Of a stretch of 34,092 nucleotides of DNA, positions 11,224 to 27,456 are shown one piece after another. The translations under genes were made by a program, and so were the position numbers. The notes under the pieces were generated by a model. The model was not told where the DNA came from and did not search any database. It saw nothing but the letters and a program-made list of their open reading frames with translations. Within the stretch, counting starts at the first letter, position 1; every line of letters begins with the position of its first letter. This stretch comes from Clostridiales bacterium (GTDB lineage: Bacteria > Bacillota > Dehalobacteriia > UBA4068): positions 1-34,092 of the forward strand of contig WRHF01000005.1 in the NCBI GenBank assembly GCA_009783415.1. The letters run 5' to 3'.

Positions 11224-14200
11224 CTACGGGACTATAATTGGCCCCCGGTTGTAATTGTAAGCCAGCCAAAGTATGGTCAAATCAGCGTCATTGATCAAGC
11301 CGTCTCCGTTTAGATCGCATAAGTGGTTTTCTGCTTCACCGGCTTTTTTGTTGTAATTACCTGCCCGCCATAAAACGGTCAAATCAGCATCATTGATCAG
11401 GCCGTCACCATTGATATCGCCGCAGCGCAAGCTCATCAGCCGAACTTCCGGACGGCTGTCTGCAGTTAGGTCGAGATCAGTATTGCCGACAATGACAGAT
11501 TGAACCGTAAAAGAGGTGTGAGCAGGTTTTTTGATAACAAGAGAATAGGTATCCGGCTCGATTGCAGGGAAAGTAAATGTCCGGTCAACTTGGCCGTAGC
11601 CGGGCTCCTCTTTGACAGTTAACTCATATTTTACGACATCCCCCTGCATAAGCCTGATAATTGCGGAGTTGAGCGGGTAAAATGATTTAATCATACCGGT
11701 AACAGCGACAGGATCGTCCATAGCTATTATTTCCAGCATCCCGGATGAAGCGTAGCTATCCAGATACTCGGTCCACCAGGAAATAGCCCCTGCCAAAGTG
11801 CTCTGGCTCCAATAGGATATCGTTATGGTATTCGCCGTGACCCTGTATATGCGCTGCCCCACAACAATAATATCACCTTTGCCTACTGATAGCTGGCCGG
11901 TTTCATGATAAAAGCCGGCAATATCAAAGATTTGTTCTCCCGTAGTCAGTGTCCTGACCGCATCGCTGACCGCAGGCGTTCCGGCGCTGTATGCGCTGTT
12001 TTCCGCACTGCGGACAAATATATAGTAGTCTGTTCCCGGAGCAAGTCCGGTAAAAACCTTGCTGCTCTGCCAGGCGCCGGGCGTCATACTGTTTGTTCCT
12101 ACGGCATATTCGATCATTTGGCCGGTCGGGGAAACCAAAGTAGCTGCGGCGATAAATCCGTTTCCGCCGATAAGGCTTGCCGCGGGTTTATTCAGCGCCG
12201 AGCCGGTTCCCTTGTAAACAGTGTAGCCGGTGATAGCCGCAGCCGCAGCCGGAGCATTGTCTATGTCGCCTGCAAAGGCGGCGCCAAAGCTGTATAGACC
12301 GGGTGCAGGATCGGCGGCGGTATAGACCGCAATACCGGAAGCGTTTGTAGACGCATTGTATAAGCTGCCATTTATATTGAAAACGACTGTTTTGCCCCCA
12401 TTATCGGGCGCCGCTCCTGACAGAGTGGCCCTTAAGACAACGTTGCCCGGATAAATCTGGGAAGTAAGTGGATCTGCCGAGAGTGTCAGCTGAGGAAACA
12501 CTAACTCATTACCCACCGCAAAGCCGAGGCTGACGGCAAGTCCCGCACCTCCGTCATTGTCCCAACGGATGATAAGGGTACCGCTATAGGAACCGGCTGC
12601 CAGGGCGTTTTTGGGCCGGACAGCAATGGTTGCCGTACCCGGCAGCAGGATGGTATTGGCGGACAGCGGTGTGCTGATCTCGAAGTCCTGGCTGTTCAAT
12701 GCTGCTGTCAGGCCAGTCAGCGGCTGAGTGCCGATATTGGTGATAGTGAAGATTTGGGCCATAGACATATTGCTGTAGCCTACTGTCGCATTCGGATATG
12801 TGTAGGGTGAGGGGCTGGCAAATGCCAGATAAGTTGGCGCCAGTTCAAAAGCATATCCCATCCCGGCGCAGAGGGGATTTGTAGTTATATAATCAGGATC
12901 AAGAACCGGATCGACCTCAATGGAACCGCTGTCGCCGCCGATATGGGATTGCCAGGCGGAAAGTCCCGCATTTGTCAGGATGCTGCCCGGCCGGTTATCG
13001 GTAAAGGTAGCATTTTTCCCGGCTATAAAATAACAGTTATTGCTCATTATCGGATTTCCATCGAGAGCGGAAAGACCGCCAAGTTCATTTGCATAACGGA
13101 TCTCTATGGTCGGACGAATATTAGCGGATGGCTGGACCACAACATTATGGTGGATAATCGGGTTGAGATTGGCAGGCCGCAGGGCCTGGGGATCCCAGTC
13201 CTGCATTGTGATCCCAAAGTAAATCGCGCTGTGATATAGTCCGCCATTGGCTACATTGACCAGGGTATTGTTATAAACCTGGCCATCCTTGGAAGCATAA
13301 AATCCAATACCTTCCCAACCTGTGTCAATAATCAGGTTATTGCGGACAATACCCCGGATATTCTCATAGTACTGCGGATTAACTGTTAGGTCAAAAAATT
13401 CCGGGCTGGCATCAAAACCAAGCATAATTCCGGCGCCGTAGGCGGTTTCGATCCGGTTATTTTCGATCAAAACATCGGTTGCGCCGCCTTTAGCGTAGAT
13501 CGCATTGGAAATTATATCGTGGATATAGTTGTTATGTACATACATATTATCGCCGTTGACATTATCAATACCTTCGGCATTATCTTCCCCGTTATGCTCA
13601 TTACCGTCAAAGGCCCGCCCGGAATTATATATTTCATTATAGCGGATGGTGACATTATTACATTTGGGTTTTACTTTGATCACATCGTACCTGGAATCAT
13701 GCAGTTTGCAATCCTCGATAATAATATTGGAAGCCCCGGTCCGGTTATTCGGATCTCCCCAATCCCATCTTGTTTCTGTCGAAACAGCATAAAACCCTCC
13801 GATTACTTCAACAGATTGCAGTTTGCCGCCTGAGGAATCAACATCGAAATATACTCCGGAGTCTTCGTCATTGCCCGAATCATAGCTGGTCAGGTCAATA
13901 ACCGCCCATTCGCCTTCTCTGGACTTTATGGTAATATTTGGCAAACGTACCCGGACATTGGCTCCTTCACGATAAGTACCTCCGCGCAGGATTATGGTAT
14001 CGCCGGACGCAGCGGCTGCCAAAGCGGTATTGATACTTTTATAAGGCGCTTCTATAGATCCGGTTGCCGTAGAATCGTTACCATCCGGAGAAACATAGAT
14101 AGCATCTGCCGGGTCGGCAGCGGAATTAATACGCGGCCCAAAATCATCAGTAGCCGCAAATACGGTCTCAAAAACGATGAGCCGTGCGGCATCGAATACA

Positions 14201-14274
14201 ATGGTAAGAACAAAGGCAGCTAAAAGCATAAGCATTAATAACTTCATTGGCTTCTTAGATATTATAGTAAACAT
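11224..14274 (-). CDS. Secreted parallel beta-helix (DUF1565-like) protein with C-terminal type I dockerin
   Basis: N-terminal signal-like segment; IYVSPDGNDSTATGSIEAPYKSINTALAAAASGDTIILRGGTYRE; repeated N-rich beta-helix turns; C-terminal GDINGDGLINDADLTVLWRAGNYN...CDLNGDGLINDADLTILWLAYNYN (about 11227-11430). Confidence 0.9.
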   Translation of the reverse strand: MFTIISKKPMKLLMLMLLAAFVLTIVFDAARLIVFETVFAATDDFGPRINSAADPADAIYVSPDGNDSTATGSIEAPYKSINTALAAAASGDTIILRGGTYREGANVRVRLPNITIKSREGEWAVIDLTSYDSGNDEDSGVYFDVDSSGGKLQSVEVIGGFYAVSTETRWDWGDPNNRTGASNIIIEDCKLHDSRYDVIKVKPKCNNVTIRYNEIYNSGRAFDGNEHNGEDNAEGIDNVNGDNMYVHNNYIHDIISNAIYAKGGATDVLIENNRIETAYGAGIMLGFDASPEFFDLTVNPQYYENIRGIVRNNLIIDTGWEGIGFYASKDGQVYNNTLVNVANGGLYHSAIYFGITMQDWDPQALRPANLNPIIHHNVVVQPSANIRPTIEIRYANELGGLSALDGNPIMSNNCYFIAGKNATFTDNRPGSILTNAGLSAWQSHIGGDSGSIEVDPVLDPDYITTNPLCAGMGYAFELAPTYLAFASPSPYTYPNATVGYSNMSMAQIFTITNIGTQPLTGLTAALNSQDFEISTPLSANTILLPGTATIAVRPKNALAAGSYSGTLIIRWDNDGGAGLAVSLGFAVGNELVFPQLTLSADPLTSQIYPGNVVLRATLSGAAPDNGGKTVVFNINGSLYNASTNASGIAVYTAADPAPGLYSFGAAFAGDIDNAPAAAAAITGYTVYKGTGSALNKPAASLIGGNGFIAAATLVSPTGQMIEYAVGTNSMTPGAWQSSKVFTGLAPGTDYYIFVRSAENSAYSAGTPAVSDAVRTLTTGEQIFDIAGFYHETGQLSVGKGDIIVVGQRIYRVTANTITISYWSQSTLAGAISWWTEYLDSYASSGMLEIIAMDDPVAVTGMIKSFYPLNSAIIRLMQGDVVKYELTVKEEPGYGQVDRTFTFPAIEPDTYSLVIKKPAHTSFTVQSVIVGNTDLDLTADSRPEVRLMSLRCGDINGDGLINDADLTVLWRAGNYNKKAGEAENHLCDLNGDGLINDADLTILWLAYNYNRGPIIVP

Positions 14275-17372: not shown

Positions 17373-17376
17373 AGAT

Positions 17377-17475
17377 CATTCTTTGTAATATTTTTGCTTG
17401 CGGCTTTTCGGCTTATCGGGAATGGTCATTTTTAGCCTGCCGCTTTTTTCAAGTCAACCGTATTCAGCTCGCAAC
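17377..17475 (-). pseudogene. Internally deleted remnant of an AlbA_2/HATPase gene (paralog of 21042..22478)
   Basis: 17377-17446 matches 21043-21112 (3' end) and 17439-17475 matches 22393-about 22430 (5' part); junction at shared GCCGCTTT. Confidence 0.8.
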
Positions 17476-17529: not shown

Positions 17530-20500
17530 TTAAGCGCCAACAACCATCCTGAGAATCAGAGCGGCATCAGTGGTATCGACCAGGCCATCTCCATTGATGT
17601 CGCCCAGGAGTTGAGCTCTGGGGGTCCAATCAATCAGGCCGACAATCATTTGCAGGAGCAACATGGCATCTTCCGGGGTAACCAAACCATTACCGTCAAT
17701 ATCACCTGGAATACCAAGAATCAAGGCGCCTTTTTCGATCACAACTTCCAAATCGATCAGCTTATCCATGAAGCCGTTGTACTGCATCTTTATCGGTTCC
17801 AGATTTAATGGATATTCCGCGGTACCAGGAGCACTTGCATCTATTTGATAAGTTACGGTAAAAAGGCCATCATTATCCATAACATTATCTTGCGAAGCAA
17901 AAGCGACCCGCATCAAGCCGGGGGAATAATTGGGGTTGAAGACAAAGAAGGGTGTATTCAAGCCGCCGGAAGCCGTGACTGCAACAGGCGTATAGACGGA
18001 GCTATTGTAGGGTATCTTCAGATCCAAGTTGGAAAAACCATAATCATTACCGGTAATTGTGTAGGTAACATCCACTTTTCCATCGGGTGCTGCTGCAACA
18101 TTTCCTATTTTGATAACTACAGCATCTTCAGCTTCAGTCAATCTGAGAGGAATGTCAATATAAGAGCCGGAGCCGAGCTGCAGATCAAATTCGGCAGTAC
18201 ACTCTGAGGTCAACAGAGGGCTGTAGGAGGGGTCGCTACCATAAACCATAACGGCAATACGGTTACCTTTTTCAAAAGTATAGTTATAGGGGTTAAGCTC
18301 CACAACATAATTGTAATATTGGCCGTGATCAATTTCCGTAGTTTGGAAATAGTAGTTGGGGATATAGTTTTGCTCGGGAACATCGAACCAAGCCTTCCCA
18401 TCATAGCTGGGGTTCTGCACATCGGTATGACCCCAGGTAACGTATTTGAAGTTGTTGGTGCTGGTTCCGACGGGGTTGCCATAGCGGGAAGCGCTGATAG
18501 CGGCAGCGCCGTTAACCGCCGGGAATACTATTGTTTCGCCCGTGGTGCTGAAACTGTAACCGGCGCGGCATCCGACATAAGCTTTCCTGCCAATTTCCAG
18601 CAGGGCGACGGAAAGGTTGCCCATACCTCTATCAGGGGCAGCCAACAGGTGAGCAACAACGCTGCCGCTCAACTGCACCCTATCGGCGAGGGGCTCGGAA
18701 AGATAGAGCAAACGGCCTGTAACAGGTTTATCCACCGCATCAAGGATCGTCTCGGCAGTCAGGTTGACAGTGCGGTTGACACCGACTAAGCGATCTTCGC
18801 AATAGTTGGCTTGAGCAGATGTGATTTGCAGATTGCCTTGGATATTGTTAAAGGGGATAACCTGGGAAGGCTTGGCAGGAGCGCCTAAATGAGGGGGGGC
18901 ATCGATCTGGGCATGAATATCCAGATCCGTAAAATGCTCCTTTGCGGCTTGCGGTTGAATATAGGAAAGCCTGCCGGCTTTTCCTTCGGGGCCTTTTGTC
19001 AGATAAATCCTTTGATAGCGGCTGCCGGGTAAAATGGTACCGCGCTCTTCTTTTGAGGCGTTGTAATCATAGGTTTGCATGATACCGGTAATATTATCAG
19101 CTATGTTAATATCATACATCAGCTCATCGACCTTGTTATCAAGGCCCAGGAGAAAATGATCAAGAAACATCAGATACCATTTCACCATACCCCGTTCCAC
19201 ACCGTCTTTACCGGGAACCAAGCGGCTGTCTTGGTTGTTAAACCCGGAAACCATTTTATGAGTTCCTCCAAAACTGTCGCGCATAGCCTGCAACGTCAAA
19301 AAGCCGCTTTTAGGCATAATGTACCAGCCCTGCTGGTCATTGCTCTGAAGTATACCCACATCGGAAGGAATTTTGCTGAAGCCGCGAGTCAGATTGCGGA
19401 CATCCCATTCCGTATTATAGTCGCCTGTGGCCCGATCCTGCTTTTGTATCATATATTGCTGAGTTCCGGCATAAGCGAGCTGGGCAATATAATCGAAGTT
19501 AGGCCCAATTTCTAAGGGAAGAATATTATTACCTCCAACATCAGAATTAAAACGATGGAATTTATTGGAAGCAATCAGGTTAATGTCATCGCCGCCATAA
19601 CCGCCGGGATTGTGAAGCGAGCCGCCGGAACGGTAAAGCTCATACCAGCTGGTAATAGCGTTTCTAAGCCAAATAGCTTTAAGGCCCGAGGCTCCGGACA
19701 TAGCGGCAAGCAGCGTAGAAGCACTGGTGCCCGCTACATGACCATTGGCCCAGTCAGCTTCCACTTCTACAGAGCCAAAGCGGGTAGTGTAGCCTTTGGT
19801 TTCGCCGTTAAACCACTTGACGGCAGCCGCGGCGGAGATCCACTCTTCCACATGCATGGTACTGGTGATTCCTTCACCGTCCCGGCTGCCGAATGATTGG
19901 ATGCTGGCCAGGGCATAACCCCGGACAAATAATTGCTGATTCCGGATCTCTTGAACCCAGCTATAGGGGGTACTGGCTGTGCCGCTGCCGGTAGGGATGG
20001 TAGCGGCGGGAACCGCACCGTTATAGTCCTGGCCTGTATACCAGCTGTCCACCTTGAACGCGTCATCGGTCGACCACCAGATGGGATCCCAGGCTTCAGT
20101 ACCTTTATATTTGATATCGTCATATTCCAGGTCGGTAGTGTCAGTATTAATGCCAATGGTTAAGGGATAATTATCATGATATTTAAAGGATTGGGCCATA
20201 GTTCTGTAGAGCGGGTCAGTACTGGAGATGTAGTTGGACATCCGGGAATAATCAAGGATAGTGGTATAATTAGTGGTATCAAATTCCATCACAACAGGGC
20301 AAAGGAAGCCGTCTTTGGTCACAGGGCGGCAGGTATAAATAGAAATCCGGTCACGCTTGCCGTCACGGTCGGTATCGCAGGGAACCTCGACCCATACCCT
20401 CTCCGTGATGTAGCCGGAGGAGCCGTATGTAAAAATGGGCATAGTCGTAGGTAATCCCTGTTCATCAACCCCGATCCAGCCGGGCTCCAAAACACAGTTA

Positions 20501-20598
20501 TTCTCAAATCCTCTAACAAACTCGGCGGAAGCAACAGCAGAAGAAGCCAAAACCAAGGCCAAGAGTGTAACAAAAATAATGCCTATTCTTTTTTTCAA
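17530..20598 (-). CDS. Secreted S15 (Xaa-Pro dipeptidyl-peptidase-like) hydrolase with cohesin-like domain and C-terminal dockerin
   Basis: Signal-like LKKRIGIIFVTLLALVLASSAVASA; WVEVPCDTDRDGKRDRISIYTCRPVT and SWYELYRSGGSLHNPGGYGGDDINLIA are PepX-like; cohesin-like about 17716-18123; dockerin GDIDGNGLVTPEDAMLLLQMIVG...GDINGDGLVDTTDAALILRMVVG. Likely TTG start 20598 after GGAGG. Confidence 0.85.
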   Translation of the reverse strand: MKKRIGIIFVTLLALVLASSAVASAEFVRGFENNCVLEPGWIGVDEQGLPTTMPIFTYGSSGYITERVWVEVPCDTDRDGKRDRISIYTCRPVTKDGFLCPVVMEFDTTNYTTILDYSRMSNYISSTDPLYRTMAQSFKYHDNYPLTIGINTDTTDLEYDDIKYKGTEAWDPIWWSTDDAFKVDSWYTGQDYNGAVPAATIPTGSGTASTPYSWVQEIRNQQLFVRGYALASIQSFGSRDGEGITSTMHVEEWISAAAAVKWFNGETKGYTTRFGSVEVEADWANGHVAGTSASTLLAAMSGASGLKAIWLRNAITSWYELYRSGGSLHNPGGYGGDDINLIASNKFHRFNSDVGGNNILPLEIGPNFDYIAQLAYAGTQQYMIQKQDRATGDYNTEWDVRNLTRGFSKIPSDVGILQSNDQQGWYIMPKSGFLTLQAMRDSFGGTHKMVSGFNNQDSRLVPGKDGVERGMVKWYLMFLDHFLLGLDNKVDELMYDINIADNITGIMQTYDYNASKEERGTILPGSRYQRIYLTKGPEGKAGRLSYIQPQAAKEHFTDLDIHAQIDAPPHLGAPAKPSQVIPFNNIQGNLQITSAQANYCEDRLVGVNRTVNLTAETILDAVDKPVTGRLLYLSEPLADRVQLSGSVVAHLLAAPDRGMGNLSVALLEIGRKAYVGCRAGYSFSTTGETIVFPAVNGAAAISASRYGNPVGTSTNNFKYVTWGHTDVQNPSYDGKAWFDVPEQNYIPNYYFQTTEIDHGQYYNYVVELNPYNYTFEKGNRIAVMVYGSDPSYSPLLTSECTAEFDLQLGSGSYIDIPLRLTEAEDAVVIKIGNVAAAPDGKVDVTYTITGNDYGFSNLDLKIPYNSSVYTPVAVTASGGLNTPFFVFNPNYSPGLMRVAFASQDNVMDNDGLFTVTYQIDASAPGTAEYPLNLEPIKMQYNGFMDKLIDLEVVIEKGALILGIPGDIDGNGLVTPEDAMLLLQMIVGLIDWTPRAQLLGDINGDGLVDTTDAALILRMVVGA

Positions 20599-20632
20599 AA
20601 CAATGTCCTCCTTTATGAAATAATAATCGCAC

Positions 20633-20728
20633 CTCAATTGTAATTGTAGGCTAGCCAGAGTATGATCAAATCACCATAGTTGATTAAATTATCGCCATTT
20701 AAATCGCATTCGGGATTTTCCGCTTGCC
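20633..20728 (-). pseudogene. Dockerin 3' gene fragment
   Basis: Minus-strand translation AENPECDLNGDNLINYGDLIILWLAYNYN* matches the dockerin end AENHLCDLNGDGLINDADLTILWLAYNYN of 11224..14274; no upstream coding continuation. Confidence 0.85.
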
Positions 20729-21041: not shown

Positions 21042-22478
21042 TCATTCTTTGTAATATTTTTGCTTGCGGCTTTTTGGTTTGTCGGGGATGGTCATTTTTA
21101 GCCTGCCGCTTTCCAGCAGCGGGTTGATATAGCGTGACATCATATAAGAAACAGATGACAGGTTCAGCTCCCTTGCCAGCTCCTCCCGGGTTTTGGGGTT
21201 GAGGCAAAAGCGAAGCAGCCTTTCTTCTATGTCAATACCATCCATTGTGATGTTATCCGGCATCTTGTTGTAAAGAGTAGCAGAAAAAGCGCCGCGGGAG
21301 GATTTAAATACAGGTTCCGGCAGTCCGGCAGCCTCCATTTCGTAACGAATGGTGGGAATCCCGGAAAAGCGGTTTTCGGTGTCAATCAACACTTCCAAGG
21401 CAGCAGCGATTGCCGGATTGCGGGTATCGGCGCCCGACTTTCCTAAATTATCCAGAGTAGAACGCCCATACAAGCCACCCGGATTTTCAACTTCGAGACG
21501 ATCTGTGTAAAACATAATGCGGATAGGAGAGCTTTCTGTATGACAACTATAGTCCCGGTGAATCAGGGCATTTAGAATAATTTCTCTAATTGCTTTTATT
21601 GGATACTCCGGCTTATCCGCCCGGCGGCCATTGTCAGCAATAATCGTTCTGACTTTGATATTACGGTGGACAAAAGCAAGCGCGCCTTCCAATAAATCAG
21701 GAATGGTTCCGCCAATTCTCTTATTATCCAAAAAGCGGGCGCCGTCAGCGGCGGTATTTCCTATTTTGTAGCCGGGAACCGTAACCGCAGTAATATCAAA
21801 GCCGGGGAAATTGGCCTGGGGATAGAGCCCAAAAAGAATAAGTCCGGCTAAGGTCGGCTTACTCTCCCTGAACAAACCGCAAAGGGTCAGCACATCCTGA
21901 TCAGAAAGATTGGTAAAATTTGGTTTCTCAAGGCGAATTTTTCCCAGAAAGAAATTCAACTTTGCTTGATTCAAGTTCGCCCCGATCCCTTCCGGAATCC
22001 AGCGCAGCTCATCCTGTATTTTGCGCCGGTAGACCTCATAGTTGTATATTTCATATTCGGTCATGGGAAGATCAGCATCACCAACACGGACAAATGACCC
22101 GCGCATTCTCCCTGCCCCCTTATAATAGCAGGGTTTTTCATAAACATCGCATTCACTGATTTCCGCGCTGACAACTGTTTGGCCATTGATTTGGGCAACA
22201 GTAAAAAGCGGCCGGACGACAGGTTCCATTTGATTGGCTTGCTCGGTCACTTTTGCTTGCAAATCCTGAGGATCATAGACGCCGCAGATCTCATAATTAT
22301 TTTCCTCGTCGATACCAAAAACAATTATTCCTCCGCCTGTTTGATTAGAAAAAGAAGAAAGGGTATCATACAAACGCTTCGGCGTTCCCCCCGCCGCTTT
22401 TTTCAATTCAACCGTATTCAGCTCACAACGGAGATTCAGACAATCGTCAACCAGTTTTGTCAGTTCTTCAGCAAGCAT
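21042..22478 (-). CDS. AlbA_2 / HATPase_c_4-type putative transcriptional regulator with C-terminal wHTH-like region
   Basis: ELNTVELKKAAGGTPKRLYDTLSSFSNQTGGGIIVFGIDEENNYEICGVYD; YPIKAIREIILNALIHRDYS; LEVENPGGLYGR; C-terminal TREELARELNLSSVSYMMSRYINPLLESGRLKMT. Confidence 0.9.
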   Translation of the reverse strand: MLAEELTKLVDDCLNLRCELNTVELKKAAGGTPKRLYDTLSSFSNQTGGGIIVFGIDEENNYEICGVYDPQDLQAKVTEQANQMEPVVRPLFTVAQINGQTVVSAEISECDVYEKPCYYKGAGRMRGSFVRVGDADLPMTEYEIYNYEVYRRKIQDELRWIPEGIGANLNQAKLNFFLGKIRLEKPNFTNLSDQDVLTLCGLFRESKPTLAGLILFGLYPQANFPGFDITAVTVPGYKIGNTAADGARFLDNKRIGGTIPDLLEGALAFVHRNIKVRTIIADNGRRADKPEYPIKAIREIILNALIHRDYSCHTESSPIRIMFYTDRLEVENPGGLYGRSTLDNLGKSGADTRNPAIAAALEVLIDTENRFSGIPTIRYEMEAAGLPEPVFKSSRGAFSATLYNKMPDNITMDGIDIEERLLRFCLNPKTREELARELNLSSVSYMMSRYINPLLESGRLKMTIPDKPKSRKQKYYKE

Positions 22479-22608: not shown

Positions 22609-24969
22609 TTAATACTGCCATATAACCCCATGCTTCGGGTCGGTGATTAATATGTTGTCCTCAAATACTACAAATTCTGTCAGCATACTGTTGGGCAAGA
22701 TAATATCCTCTGCTCTCTGGGGCTCCCTGATCAGCTCCGGGACAAAGGTAGGGCTGGCTTCTCCTGCCAAAGTTATGCACTCCAGGGCTACACCGGCTTT
22801 GACAGTGATGCGCCGCAGCACATTGAAATCCCAAACATAAAGGGCATCATTGACCCATTTAATTTTCCGGGGCATGTAAAACAGGGGGGCTGCGCCGTCA
22901 ATAAAAGCTTTTTCTCCTCCTATCCCCGCAAAATAGCTAAGCCGGCCTTCCTGCCATACCTGAATGACACCCGCCTTTTGATCTGCAAGATAAACTGCGC
23001 CGTTATCATCAAGAGTCAGCGCCGAAATACCTTCGGGTAATTCACAGATAGTATTTTTGCTTGCGCTATCGCTAATAGTCAGTGTTCTCAAAAAAAGCTT
23101 ATCTACAGCTATATTGCGGTCCAGGAAATAGATTAGGCCACCCGGAGATATGTCAAAATCTTCCACCGCAGTATAATAACCATCGGCCAGATACAAGCTT
23201 TCAGCCTCTCCCTCTCCCAACCGGATAATATTATAATAAGCGCCATCGTCATCCTCCCACTCATGGGTCAAAACAAAAACCTCGTTTTGATAACAACGGA
23301 CGATTTTTGGCGTCAGGTAATTTGGTTCGAGTATGATAGTTTCTACCCGGTCATTTTTTATTTTTCGCAAAATACCGGAATCTGCAATATAAATTGTCCC
23401 GTCTTCAGCCCTGGCAATGCTTTCCGGAGATACAAATTCCGCCCCGGATAATCTGCCATCTCTATGCTCTCTTTCCAGGGTTCCCGCAAATGGTTGAACC
23501 ATATATCCCGCCTGATAGCGTTGAGATATCTCAACTGTACCGTCCAGGGGTTCCACCACCCGGACACTAAGCTTGATGGGTTTATTGCGATAAATTCCTT
23601 TAAGCTCAGTCTCTCCTTCATTGATGCCATTTATCCGATTACCGTCTATTCGGGCAATGTTATCATCAGGAATTGTCCAATTGACCCTTGAGTTATCCAG
23701 GGCAATAATTCTCCCACCCGGCAACTGCTTTTCTAAAGATAGATCTGTTGATTCACCCATACTGATAATTACAATTTCCGGCCTAACAGTTGTATCAACA
23801 GCATTAATATAGGCGCTGCCGGCAAAACTGCTGCCGGAAAATACGATCGATAAAGCCGCTGCAAGTGCAGCTGCTTTCCGCATAAATAGGGCTTTGGCCA
23901 TCTTGATTTTGGAGACTTTGATCCTTTGGATATCAAATAACAAATCACCGGCTGATTGATAGCGCTCACCCGGATCAATAGCCAGGCATTTTTTGATAAC
24001 TTTATATAGGTCAGCGGATACTCTATTTTTAAGATCGCCGATAATTTTAAAAGTTGGACCCTCCCCCATTACAAGTTCAAACAGCATTACCCCCAAGCTA
24101 TAGATATCCGTCCTGGCATCAAGTTCCCAAGATAGCCAATCCTGGGGAAGCACCCCAAATCTACTGGCAATCAATGTCAAATCTTCTTGACGGACATTAT
24201 GCTTAAACTGTTCCGGCGCGGCATATTTGTAGGTAAGGCCATTGGTCGACATCTCATCCTGGCCAAATCGCTTGGCAATACCAAAGTCGATCAAGACCAG
24301 CTTATTGTCATGAGTCACCATAAAATTGGAAGGCTTGATATCAAGATGAAAAACAGGGGTGGGTTCAATATTATGAAGATAATTCAATACCTGAGCGATC
24401 TGCTCGGCCCAGTCCACCACAATACTTTGATTGATTTTTTGCCAGGCTTCAAACAATTTATCTAAAGAGCAGCCTTCGATATAACCTTCTATCAGATATG
24501 TTCCCTTCTCATCATGGAGTATATCAATGATTTTAGGCAGGCTGATATGGTTGAGCAGTTTGAGAATATTTTCCTCATTTGCCAGCTGACCGCAACCCTT
24601 GGGGATATGTTTTATGATCCAAAGATTTCCCAATTTGACACTTTGGGCCAGGAATACTCTGCTGCTTTTGCTGTCATGAAGCTCCTCTTTAATTATATAG
24701 CGCCCCTCCAAAGCAGGAAACTCCGTATTTTTGCTTTCGCCTTGAGCATTTTGCATAATTTCCGTAATGTCGTCCGCTTCTATCTTCCGGCTGAGATTAG
24801 AAGTTACCGTAGCTGTAAATGAAGTAATAAGCTCGGTGTCCTGCTTTAAGACCTTGCTGATCTTCCGGCTTCTTTTATGAGAAGCAATCAGGTAAATCAG
24901 CAGGGGCAAAGCAACTATTGCAAATACCCCGCTGATAATGAGTAGTATGGATATCAGGTCAAAATTCAT
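22609..24969 (-). CDS. Membrane Ser/Thr protein kinase with Ig-like/propeller-like extracellular region
   Basis: FHLDIKPSNFMVTHDNKLVLIDFGIAK, YKYAAPEQF, DARTDIYSLGVMLFELVMGEGP; TM segments LLIISGVFAIVALPLLIYLIA and KAAALAAALSIVFSGSSFAGSAYI; NHL-like VSPESIARAEDGTIYIADSGILRKI. Confidence 0.92.
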   Translation of the reverse strand: MNFDLISILLIISGVFAIVALPLLIYLIASHKRSRKISKVLKQDTELITSFTATVTSNLSRKIEADDITEIMQNAQGESKNTEFPALEGRYIIKEELHDSKSSRVFLAQSVKLGNLWIIKHIPKGCGQLANEENILKLLNHISLPKIIDILHDEKGTYLIEGYIEGCSLDKLFEAWQKINQSIVVDWAEQIAQVLNYLHNIEPTPVFHLDIKPSNFMVTHDNKLVLIDFGIAKRFGQDEMSTNGLTYKYAAPEQFKHNVRQEDLTLIASRFGVLPQDWLSWELDARTDIYSLGVMLFELVMGEGPTFKIIGDLKNRVSADLYKVIKKCLAIDPGERYQSAGDLLFDIQRIKVSKIKMAKALFMRKAAALAAALSIVFSGSSFAGSAYINAVDTTVRPEIVIISMGESTDLSLEKQLPGGRIIALDNSRVNWTIPDDNIARIDGNRINGINEGETELKGIYRNKPIKLSVRVVEPLDGTVEISQRYQAGYMVQPFAGTLEREHRDGRLSGAEFVSPESIARAEDGTIYIADSGILRKIKNDRVETIILEPNYLTPKIVRCYQNEVFVLTHEWEDDDGAYYNIIRLGEGEAESLYLADGYYTAVEDFDISPGGLIYFLDRNIAVDKLFLRTLTISDSASKNTICELPEGISALTLDDNGAVYLADQKAGVIQVWQEGRLSYFAGIGGEKAFIDGAAPLFYMPRKIKWVNDALYVWDFNVLRRITVKAGVALECITLAGEASPTFVPELIREPQRAEDIILPNSMLTEFVVFEDNILITDPKHGVIWQY

Positions 24970-24984
24970 AAAATCACATCCGAT

Positions 24985-27456
24985 CTACCAAATTTTGTTA
25001 AACATGCGGTATAGAATGATTGCTGCATCACCCCTGGTAATAGTAGTTTTAGGATTGAATTTACCGTCGCTGCGCTTAACAACCAGATTCTCCCTTGTCG
25101 CCAAAGCTATCTCTTCTCTCGACCAATCGGCCAGCGATCCGGCATCAGTATAAGTACTCAAAACTGTATTAAGATTTGACGGAGTTTTATACTTCATCTC
25201 TTTTTGCAAAACACGGGCAGCTATGGCCACCAGCTGATCCTTGAGTATATTCATTCTTGGAGCAAAGGTTTTTTTATTGAAGCCATTCACAATACCATAT
25301 TTCACAGCAGATGCTACTGCAGCATAAAACCAGTCGCTTGGCTTGACATCCTCAAAATCACATATAGCATTATCATCATATTTGGAAAGAGTTCGCACAA
25401 TCAGCGCTGCTATCTCTGCTCTATTAATATAGGAATCCGGAGAGAATCTGTAGGCACTGGTACCGCTGATTATCCCTTTGGATGCCAGGATCCGAATAGC
25501 GTTTTGCATCTCCGGGGACTTATTGGCGATATCTGTAAAATCTTTTTTATTTTCCTTTACCGTATAGTTGCCACTTTCATTGATTCTTACATCCAGGGTT
25601 TGGGTGACCGGGTTGTACTTGCCGCCTACCGCATTACCGGAAGGACCCATCACAGCCTGATAAGTAGGGTCTCCCGGAGCCGGTTGCAAAGATATTTTAA
25701 TATTTTCCTCAATGGGCTTGCTGAAAGTGATATTGTAGGTTTTACTGTTTTGGGCGCCTGCCAAAAATGCCAGGGTCAACTCGGGGTCACTAAAGGCAAA
25801 TAAACTTGGGCTGCTGCTTTCTTTAACCGTGATGATCAAGGGGAGGCCATCTTCGGTATTGGTTTTGATGGATTCGGCAGAGAATGTCAGGGCATAATCG
25901 GGAGCTTGCACCCTGACATTGCCGCTGACTTGGTCACCGGCCGAAGAATCTATCGTGATTTTTAATAAAGAACCGTCCTTTGTCTTGAAATTTACCCCGC
26001 TGGACAGCTCCCGGTGCGGGGTAATGCCGGAGGAGACAAGCGCCTCCCCAGTCGCTGTCTTTACTACTTCAGCTGTGGCTTGCAGGGCGCTTATGCTGTC
26101 CTTATCGATCAATATGTCGCCGCTTGTATCCTGACTGCTGGCCAAAGCCACTGCTTCTTCGGCATAAAGAGTGAGCATATCAATGCCCGTGGCATTAGCT
26201 TTTCCTCCAATAGAGAGGTCTGATGCAGCCGCTTTTGTGGCAGAGACAGCGCTGCTTCGATCCGTAACGGTAGCCAGCTTGTCCAAGGGCAAAAGAATCT
26301 GATCAGGCGCAAGATATGTAGTAGGTTCTGCAGCAGGGGCCGGCTTTTTTACCTCGTTCATAATTTTAACAGGCGTGTATACATCCGAACCGATTGCACT
26401 ACCCCCGATCTGCCCCCAGGAATTTGAGCCAAAAGCCCACAGGGAACCGTCTTTTTTAGTTGCCAAAGTATGATTGTAACCGGCGGTGGCAGCAGCAACA
26501 TTGTCCATTATTTTTTCCGGGGTATATCTATCAGCCGCCTGCCCATCGCCCAGCTTGCCGTAAGCATTCCTTCCCCAAGACCAAAGGCTGCCGTCATTTT
26601 TTATCGCTACCGTATGATCTTCCCCGGCAGATGCCGCTACGACACTATCCATAATTTTTTTCGGAGTATTCCTTTGAGTTGCGCTACCGTCACCAAGCTG
26701 CCCGCTATCATTCGCTCCCCAGGCCCAAAGGCTGCCGTCATCTGTTACTGCCAGAGAATAGTAATAATCACCGGCAGATATACTCGCAACATTTTCCATT
26801 ACCATTACCGGCATCGGTCTATCTGTTGTTGACCCGTCCCCGATTTGCCCATTTTTATTTGCTCCCCAAAGCCAAAGACTGCCATCTGTTCTGATTGCCA
26901 TTGAATGGGTATTTCCGGCAGCAATGGCGATAACACCGTCCATGATTTTGACCGGTTCAAGTCTTTGGGTCCTAGAGCCATCCCCAAGCTGACCGGATAA
27001 ATTCCCGCCCCAGGCCCAGAGGCTGCCATCTGTTTTGATTGCCAGAGAATGATTATATCCGGCAGATACAGCTGCTACATTATCCATAATTTTTTTCGGG
27101 GTATTTCTTTGGATGGTTGTACCATCACCGATCTGGCCGGTAGAATTCCCGCCCCAGACCCAAAGGCTGCCATCTGTTTTGATTGCCATTGAGTGATAAT
27201 AGCCGGCAGAAACAGCGGTGACACCGTCCATGATTTTGGCAGGAGCATTCCGATCCTTGCCATCACCAAGCTGCCCGGAAAAATTCCCGCCCCAAGTCCA
27301 AAGGCTATCATCCGATTTAATAGCCAGAGAATGGGCATATCCGGCAGAAACCGGATCAAGACCACTCCCGAAAGCAACCGCATCCACCGGCGCCATCACC
27401 ACTACCATAACCAGCAAAAGCAAGCCGGCCAATCCTTTTTTCAACATTTTTACCAC
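24985..27456 (-). CDS. Secreted RCC1-repeat protein with C-terminal SLH domains
   Basis: Signal peptide MLKKGLAGLLLLVMVVVMAPVDAVA; repeated VSAGYYHSMAIKTDGSLWVWGGNSTGQIGDG units; C-terminal SLH (AIRILASKGIISGTSAYRFSPDSYINRAEIAALIVRTL etc.). Confidence 0.93.
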   Translation of the reverse strand: MVKMLKKGLAGLLLLVMVVVMAPVDAVAFGSGLDPVSAGYAHSLAIKSDDSLWTWGGNFSGQLGDGKDRNAPAKIMDGVTAVSAGYYHSMAIKTDGSLWVWGGNSTGQIGDGTTIQRNTPKKIMDNVAAVSAGYNHSLAIKTDGSLWAWGGNLSGQLGDGSRTQRLEPVKIMDGVIAIAAGNTHSMAIRTDGSLWLWGANKNGQIGDGSTTDRPMPVMVMENVASISAGDYYYSLAVTDDGSLWAWGANDSGQLGDGSATQRNTPKKIMDSVVAASAGEDHTVAIKNDGSLWSWGRNAYGKLGDGQAADRYTPEKIMDNVAAATAGYNHTLATKKDGSLWAFGSNSWGQIGGSAIGSDVYTPVKIMNEVKKPAPAAEPTTYLAPDQILLPLDKLATVTDRSSAVSATKAAASDLSIGGKANATGIDMLTLYAEEAVALASSQDTSGDILIDKDSISALQATAEVVKTATGEALVSSGITPHRELSSGVNFKTKDGSLLKITIDSSAGDQVSGNVRVQAPDYALTFSAESIKTNTEDGLPLIITVKESSSPSLFAFSDPELTLAFLAGAQNSKTYNITFSKPIEENIKISLQPAPGDPTYQAVMGPSGNAVGGKYNPVTQTLDVRINESGNYTVKENKKDFTDIANKSPEMQNAIRILASKGIISGTSAYRFSPDSYINRAEIAALIVRTLSKYDDNAICDFEDVKPSDWFYAAVASAVKYGIVNGFNKKTFAPRMNILKDQLVAIAARVLQKEMKYKTPSNLNTVLSTYTDAGSLADWSREEIALATRENLVVKRSDGKFNPKTTITRGDAAIILYRMFNKIW

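Follow-up and report, generated by a model that had tools for sequence, protein, structure and literature searches.

The gene at 17530..20598 (minus strand) of the window, by which we mean the whole stretch of 34,092 nucleotides analysed here, encodes a secreted protein of 1022 residues (open reading frame and Pfam) that resembles the X-prolyl dipeptidyl peptidase PepX, is probably a pseudoenzyme judging from its sequence, and ends in a cassette made of a cohesin and a dockerin. Our preferred reading, held tentatively and at slightly less than even confidence, is that the protein belongs, as a catalytically dead copy, to a PepX-like family of 23 and is brought by its cohesin–dockerin (Coh–Doc) cassette into an extracellular assembly that is dominated by peptidases, resembles a cellulosome, and has interlinked components.

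The reading frame starts with TTG at 20598, preceded by the ribosome-binding site AAAGGAGG, and stops at 17530; its first part (20524..20598, minus strand), just downstream of that site, encodes a signal-peptide-like N-terminus, MKKRIGIIFVTLLALVLASSAVASA. Pfam assigned four domains in the order Peptidase_S15 (the alpha/beta-hydrolase of PepX; 19351..20013, minus strand, 3.4e-16), PepX_C (a noncatalytic jelly roll; 18217..18732, minus strand, 1.5e-16), Cohesin, and Dockerin_1, each of them exceeding its curated cut-off. The solved structures closest to the enzyme part, both by sequence search and by Foldseek fold search, were 1lns and 6nff, both X-prolyl dipeptidyl aminopeptidases, and the protein has the complete fold of the S15 X-Pro dipeptidyl peptidases, with alpha/beta-hydrolase and PepX_C domain. 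The alternative of a CocE-type esterase was ruled out, as the nearest structures and the NCBIfam matches were PepX. Directly 3' of the gene, positions 17376-17475 hold a remnant, shortened by deletion, of the gene at 21042..22478, matching the two ends of the latter over 71 nt at 94% and over 40 nt at 93% identity. Directly 5' of it, at 20630-20720 (minus strand), lies a remnant of the second repeat of a class-B dockerin (AENPECDLNGDNLINYGDLIILWLAYNYN and a stop; classes defined below), and farther on the window contains a membrane Ser/Thr kinase with NHL-like repeats (22609-24969) that adjoins an RCC1-repeat protein with SLH domains (24985-27456).

That a cohesin and a dockerin stand together at the C-terminus of a secreted PepX-like protein had been proposed in a preliminary description, and Pfam, AlphaFold2, and Foldseek agree on it. 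The profile search suggested there gave scores above the curated cut-offs for the cohesin (PF00963; 17713..18126, minus strand, 3.8e-8; 34.1 versus 24.1 bits) as well as for the type I dockerin that forms the chain end (PF00404; 17533..17706, minus strand, 5.4e-7; 30.2 versus 22.9 bits). In the AlphaFold2 model of the C-terminal 201 residues (pLDDT 93.1), the nine-strand sandwich of the cohesin is complete, and its final strand (residues 136-140) passes into the dockerin (from residue 144) without a linker. All 50 of the 50 best PDB matches that Foldseek returned for this model were cohesins, which rules out the PKD- or BIG-type fold named beforehand as the alternative, and a profile search with the C-terminal module also recovered solved cohesins and dockerins. 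By profile and predicted fold, the two modules are thus a genuine cohesin, for which dockerin binding is putative, and a genuine type I dockerin. In a by-eye alignment, the cohesin retains N36 and D38, the counterparts of N37 and D39 of CipA, and the dockerin has two F-hand calcium repeats, GDIDGNGLVTPED and GDINGDGLVDTTD, with the ligands D1, N/D3, D/N5, and D12. With one dockerin and a single cohesin per chain, the protein matches, in this respect, the definition of a monovalent adaptor scaffoldin (PMC11557425). Pairing between the cohesin and the dockerin of one and the same chain is unlikely, because in the model the two abut without a linker.

The dockerins of the source genome fall into two classes at positions 10-11, 17-18, and 22, which we take to be the recognition positions of type I dockerins. 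Class A, that of the cassettes, shows PE/LQ/G in the first repeat and mostly TT/LR/G in the second, both of which are found in the window protein; in class B, 21 of 22 first repeats and most of the second ones read DA/WR/Y and DA/WL/Y. The window holds both classes, as a beta-helix/Ig-like surface protein at 11224..14274 (minus strand) carries a class-B dockerin (DA/WR/Y, DA/WL/Y). This protein had been put forward as a candidate for recruitment by the window cohesin; its dockerin is real (Pfam, 1.1e-7) but of a different class from those of the cassettes, and with such class-specific recognition residues it is an unlikely partner.

Across the source genome (2.8 Mb in 240 contigs, 85% complete), we found 55 matches to PF00963 and 77 to PF00404, with both families present in 46 open frames. 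A cassette profile built from 39 Coh–Doc modules and run over the genome likewise gave 46 ORFs with a complete module, 45 of which end with it, and a further three that are cut by contig ends (C86_9505, C22_21626, and C87). The preliminary description had considered the joint presence of a cohesin and a dockerin on a peptidase unusual, a view that does not fit a genome with at least 46 copies of the cassette. The unit measures about 200 residues, lacks a linker, and ends in a nearly invariant MVVGG; a simple hydrophobicity count indicates a signal-peptide-like start in all 39 cassette ORFs with an intact 5' end. Mean identity across the cassettes is 79% in the dockerin and 46% in the cohesin part, with alignment entropies of 0.55 and 1.61 bits, respectively. 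The PE/LQ of the dockerin is invariant in the cassette alignment and LR is found in 38 of 39 copies, while D38 of the cohesin is Asp in 32 of 39. Identical residues are encoded by different codons in 47% (dockerin) and 49% (cohesin) of cases, and the conservation therefore reflects selection at the protein level and not recent copying; recent gene conversion is ruled out as the general cause of the similarity. In a few pairs (C12/C58, the C105 pair, and the C140 pair), the cassettes are much closer than the catalytic domains, indicating that local exchange does occur.

The cargo of the cassettes consists mostly of peptidases. Of the 27 S15 domains of the genome, 21 are on proteins with the cassette, and the PepX-like set rises to 23 when two copies cut at contig ends are counted. 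Other cassette proteins carry M6 (C86, C210, and, with a variant dockerin, C82), M28 (C133), and M64 (C131) peptidases or have an HExxH motif and no Pfam name (such as C157 and C222). The remainder includes phosphoesterase-type proteins (the metallophosphoesterase C22_18073 and the GDPD protein C22_21626, which is cut) and surface-type proteins (C80, C94, C107, C164, and C17). C27_12486 (L070:2795-5680), which is secreted and joins four rubrerythrin-like domains to the cassette, is apparently an oxygen-defence protein tagged into the same extracellular system. C14_156 (L065:156-3767), an S15–Coh–Doc protein, extends 201 residues past its dockerin in what looks by eye like a hydrolase of the metallo-beta-lactamase fold. 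Two S15 proteins on C59 (L180) end in SLH repeats in place of the cassette, so the S15 family is displayed on the surface in at least two ways. Two features that define a cellulosome were not seen: the cargo of the cassette proteins scanned, a subset of all, is not dominated by plant-polysaccharide enzymes, no glycoside hydrolase being seen among them, and no multi-cohesin scaffoldin was found in the 85% complete assembly.

In the assembly that we envisage, the pseudopeptidase would first be secreted and then be seated by class-A cohesin–dockerin binding in an extracellular, peptidase-rich complex. From the sequences we infer that class-A dockerins bind, in trans, to the cohesin in the cassette of another protein. 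As each protein offers both a socket and a plug, they could link mutually, as a daisy chain or a network, and not only to a central scaffoldin; linking in trans through the two modules is plausible and has been suggested before for Amy4 of Ruminococcus bromii (PMC5814915). Four ORFs with two cohesins and a class-A dockerin (C12_20822, C80_6060, C107_3, and C164_1871) would serve as branch points, and the pseudopeptidase itself might act as a structural or peptide-binding link. A possible tether is C100_3643 (L089:3643-4560), a protein of 305 residues with a signal peptide, one cohesin, a Pro/Thr-rich linker, and a transmembrane helix, which from its sequence could anchor dockerins in the membrane; the strand-3 motif of its cohesin differs from that of the cassette cohesins, which counts against such a role. 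The genome also contains an adaptor-like protein, C83_3583 (L085:3583-8124), in which two cohesins are combined with two dockerins of different types (Coh–Doc–Coh followed by class B). In the 85% complete assembly, two was the highest number of PF00963 or cassette cohesins found in any ORF, and a scaffoldin may lie outside the assembly: repeated cohesin genes break assemblies, and this one is in 240 contigs, so such a gene may be missing. The stronger version of the model, a peptidase-dominated, cellulosome-like machine that works without a central scaffoldin, its components chained by rigid socket-and-plug cassettes and its dead members acting as links, is conceivable, but we are doubtful of it.

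The main competing explanation is that the cassette cohesin is a structural spacer, playing the part of an X-module and binding no dockerin, while the class-A dockerin has a single, dedicated receptor, such as a membrane-anchored single-cohesin protein or a scaffoldin absent from the fragmented assembly. We lean against it but regard it as a serious contender. The missing linker agrees with it, as AlphaFold2 shows cohesin and dockerin as one rigid unit (pTM 0.84), and so does the much stronger conservation of the dockerin, which is what one shared receptor would be expected to produce. X–Doc dyads are common, the class-B dockerins of the source genome likewise follow a fixed beta-domain, and a membrane-anchored cohesin does exist in C100_3643. 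On the other hand, the cohesin has a canonical fold and mostly keeps its Asp at D38, and for about 50 dockerins the assembly offers few noncassette cohesins and no multi-cohesin scaffoldin.

Mutual linking of the cassette proteins, the reading that we prefer, would give a role to a protein that has probably lost its activity. The preliminary description had assumed a working peptidase, but the alignment with the paralogues and 1lns, whose triad we take to be S348/D468/H498, shows that the catalytic Asp and His are gone. The codon at the position of the Asp (D468 of 1lns, within QDWNV; 19327..19329, minus strand) is GGC for Gly, and the His was removed by a 9-nt in-frame deletion with its junction at 19236..19237 (minus strand), where the paralogues have LSxHASQ and the window copy FN---NQ. 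The Gly-x-Ser-Tyr-x-Gly nucleophile elbow (19714..19731, minus strand) is damaged by losses of 6 and 9 nt, both in frame, that turn the MDGTSYPGTTP of the paralogues into --GTS---AST. The alignment still allows a serine at the position of the nucleophile, but catalysis is not expected with Asp and His lost. The other 20 of the 21 S15 cassette proteins keep all three catalytic residues.

These losses would also be expected of a decaying and functionless pseudogene of an active PepX paralogue; the S15 score of the window copy is the lowest among the full-length members, and remnants of other genes lie on both flanks. We nevertheless consider this explanation unlikely. The frame runs through 1022 codons without a stop or frameshift, every indel is in frame, and the ribosome-binding site, signal peptide, and cassette are intact. 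Pairwise dN/dS to the two nearest full-length paralogues is 0.17-0.19, and the ratio of changes at first and second positions to those at third positions on the gene's own branch, 0.32, falls within the range of the intact, active paralogues (0.17-0.36). Both comparisons are saturated (dS above 1); they rule out unconstrained decay for most of the branch and leave room for a recent loss. As far as the sequence tells, the constraint on the gene resembles that on the active paralogues and does not fit simple decay.

It is also improbable that the cassette serves as a C-terminal tag for sorting or secretion by an export or cell-surface system, with no cohesin–dockerin pairing involved. Such a tag could account for 45 of 46 cassettes ending the chain at the same terminus, but neither the calcium-binding repeats nor the cohesin fold is damaged, ordinary cellulosomal enzymes also have C-terminal dockerins, and C14_156 continues beyond its cassette. 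The original idea, in which the dipeptidyl peptidase is active, forms head-to-tail polymers with itself, and recruits the dockerin protein next to it, can draw on the presence of both modules and on the self-aggregation proposed for Amy4 (PMC5814915), but we give it hardly any credence given the lost catalytic residues, the other class of the neighbour's dockerin, and at least 45 other cassette proteins with an invariant dockerin that offers no specificity for a pure homopolymer.

Enzymes with both modules are already known singly; in the literature searched, we met no account of a single cassette carried by dozens of mainly peptidase proteins with no visible scaffoldin. Amy4 (Sca1) of the R. 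bromii amylosome is likewise one secreted enzyme with a cohesin and a dockerin, for which aggregation through its own pair has been proposed (PMC5814915); it is, however, a single amylase amid ordinary dockerin enzymes and scaffoldins, whereas here at least 46 proteins, mostly peptidases, have the pair and the window copy is predicted to be catalytically dead. ScaO and ScaP of Pseudobacteroides cellulosolvens and Acetivibrio cellulolyticus join a peptidase-like module, a single cohesin, and a dockerin, as does the window protein, and a ScaO-like protein of A. mesophilus has a C-terminal Coh1–Doc1 bi-domain (PMC5590126, PMC11557425); those are one or two proteins within large scaffoldin-based cellulosomes, without a comparable expansion. 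Monovalent adaptor scaffoldins, which switch type or extend the chain through one dockerin and one cohesin (PMC11557425), are scaffolding proteins, whereas here the pair is borne by enzymes. The N-terminal 800 residues of the window protein are closest in fold and sequence to PepX (1lns, 6nff; MEROPS S15); whereas all of Ser, Asp, and His are present in PepX, Asp and His are missing from the window copy, which also carries a signal peptide and the cassette. Dockerin peptidases are common in cellulosomes, with 71 in P. cellulosolvens (PMC5590126), and archaeal and ANME genomes are rich in cohesin and dockerin proteins unconnected with cellulose degradation (PMC9012536). The Limousia mucinolysome is a cellulosome-like complex that does not act on cellulose and includes dockerin peptidases (PMC12997984), as does the system described here from sequence; unlike the source genome, it has multi-cohesin scaffoldins and mostly CAZyme cargo. 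In the open literature searched, we found no published expansion of Coh–Doc on peptidases, though one may exist elsewhere.

Within the genomes sampled, in which the source genome alone represents its genus, the expansion looks specific to the source lineage. The rpoB of the source genome, whose assembly has no 16S gene, shares 84% identity with that of two genomes of the class, 81% with that of a Dethiobacter MAG, and 79% with that of Acetivibrio, which places the genome in Bacillota in the broad sense. The profile search found the full cassette in none of 42 other genomes of the class; among these, G041 (L150/L117) has an M6-like peptidase with a divergent Coh–Doc unit near its N-terminus, and G004 an M28-like peptidase with a cohesin but no dockerin. 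In a phylum-wide sample of 399 genomes, none of the 398 others had a comparable full module, the best being a weak match (1.5e-16) in G304. Six named genomes were also compared, among them Acetivibrio alkalicellulosi, a classical producer of cellulosomes, and a Christensenella MAG rich in dockerins; most matches there span the dockerin half only, and single divergent Coh–Doc proteins occur in two of the six, an Oscillospiraceae MAG and a Dethiobacter MAG.

Cohesin–dockerin systems are known mainly from scaffoldin-based complexes that degrade polysaccharides. A set of at least 46 secreted, mostly peptidase cassette proteins without a multi-cohesin scaffoldin would represent another way to build such complexes, and the peptidase-rich cargo points to protein, not plant fibre, as the substrate. 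With so little variation in the dockerin, binding assays on a small number of purified modules could separate self-linking from attachment to a single receptor, and the probably dead PepX copy offers a way to test what noncatalytic subunits do in such complexes. Taken genome wide, the cassette suggests a relative of the cellulosome that degrades protein and whose parts may each be able to attach to the next one.
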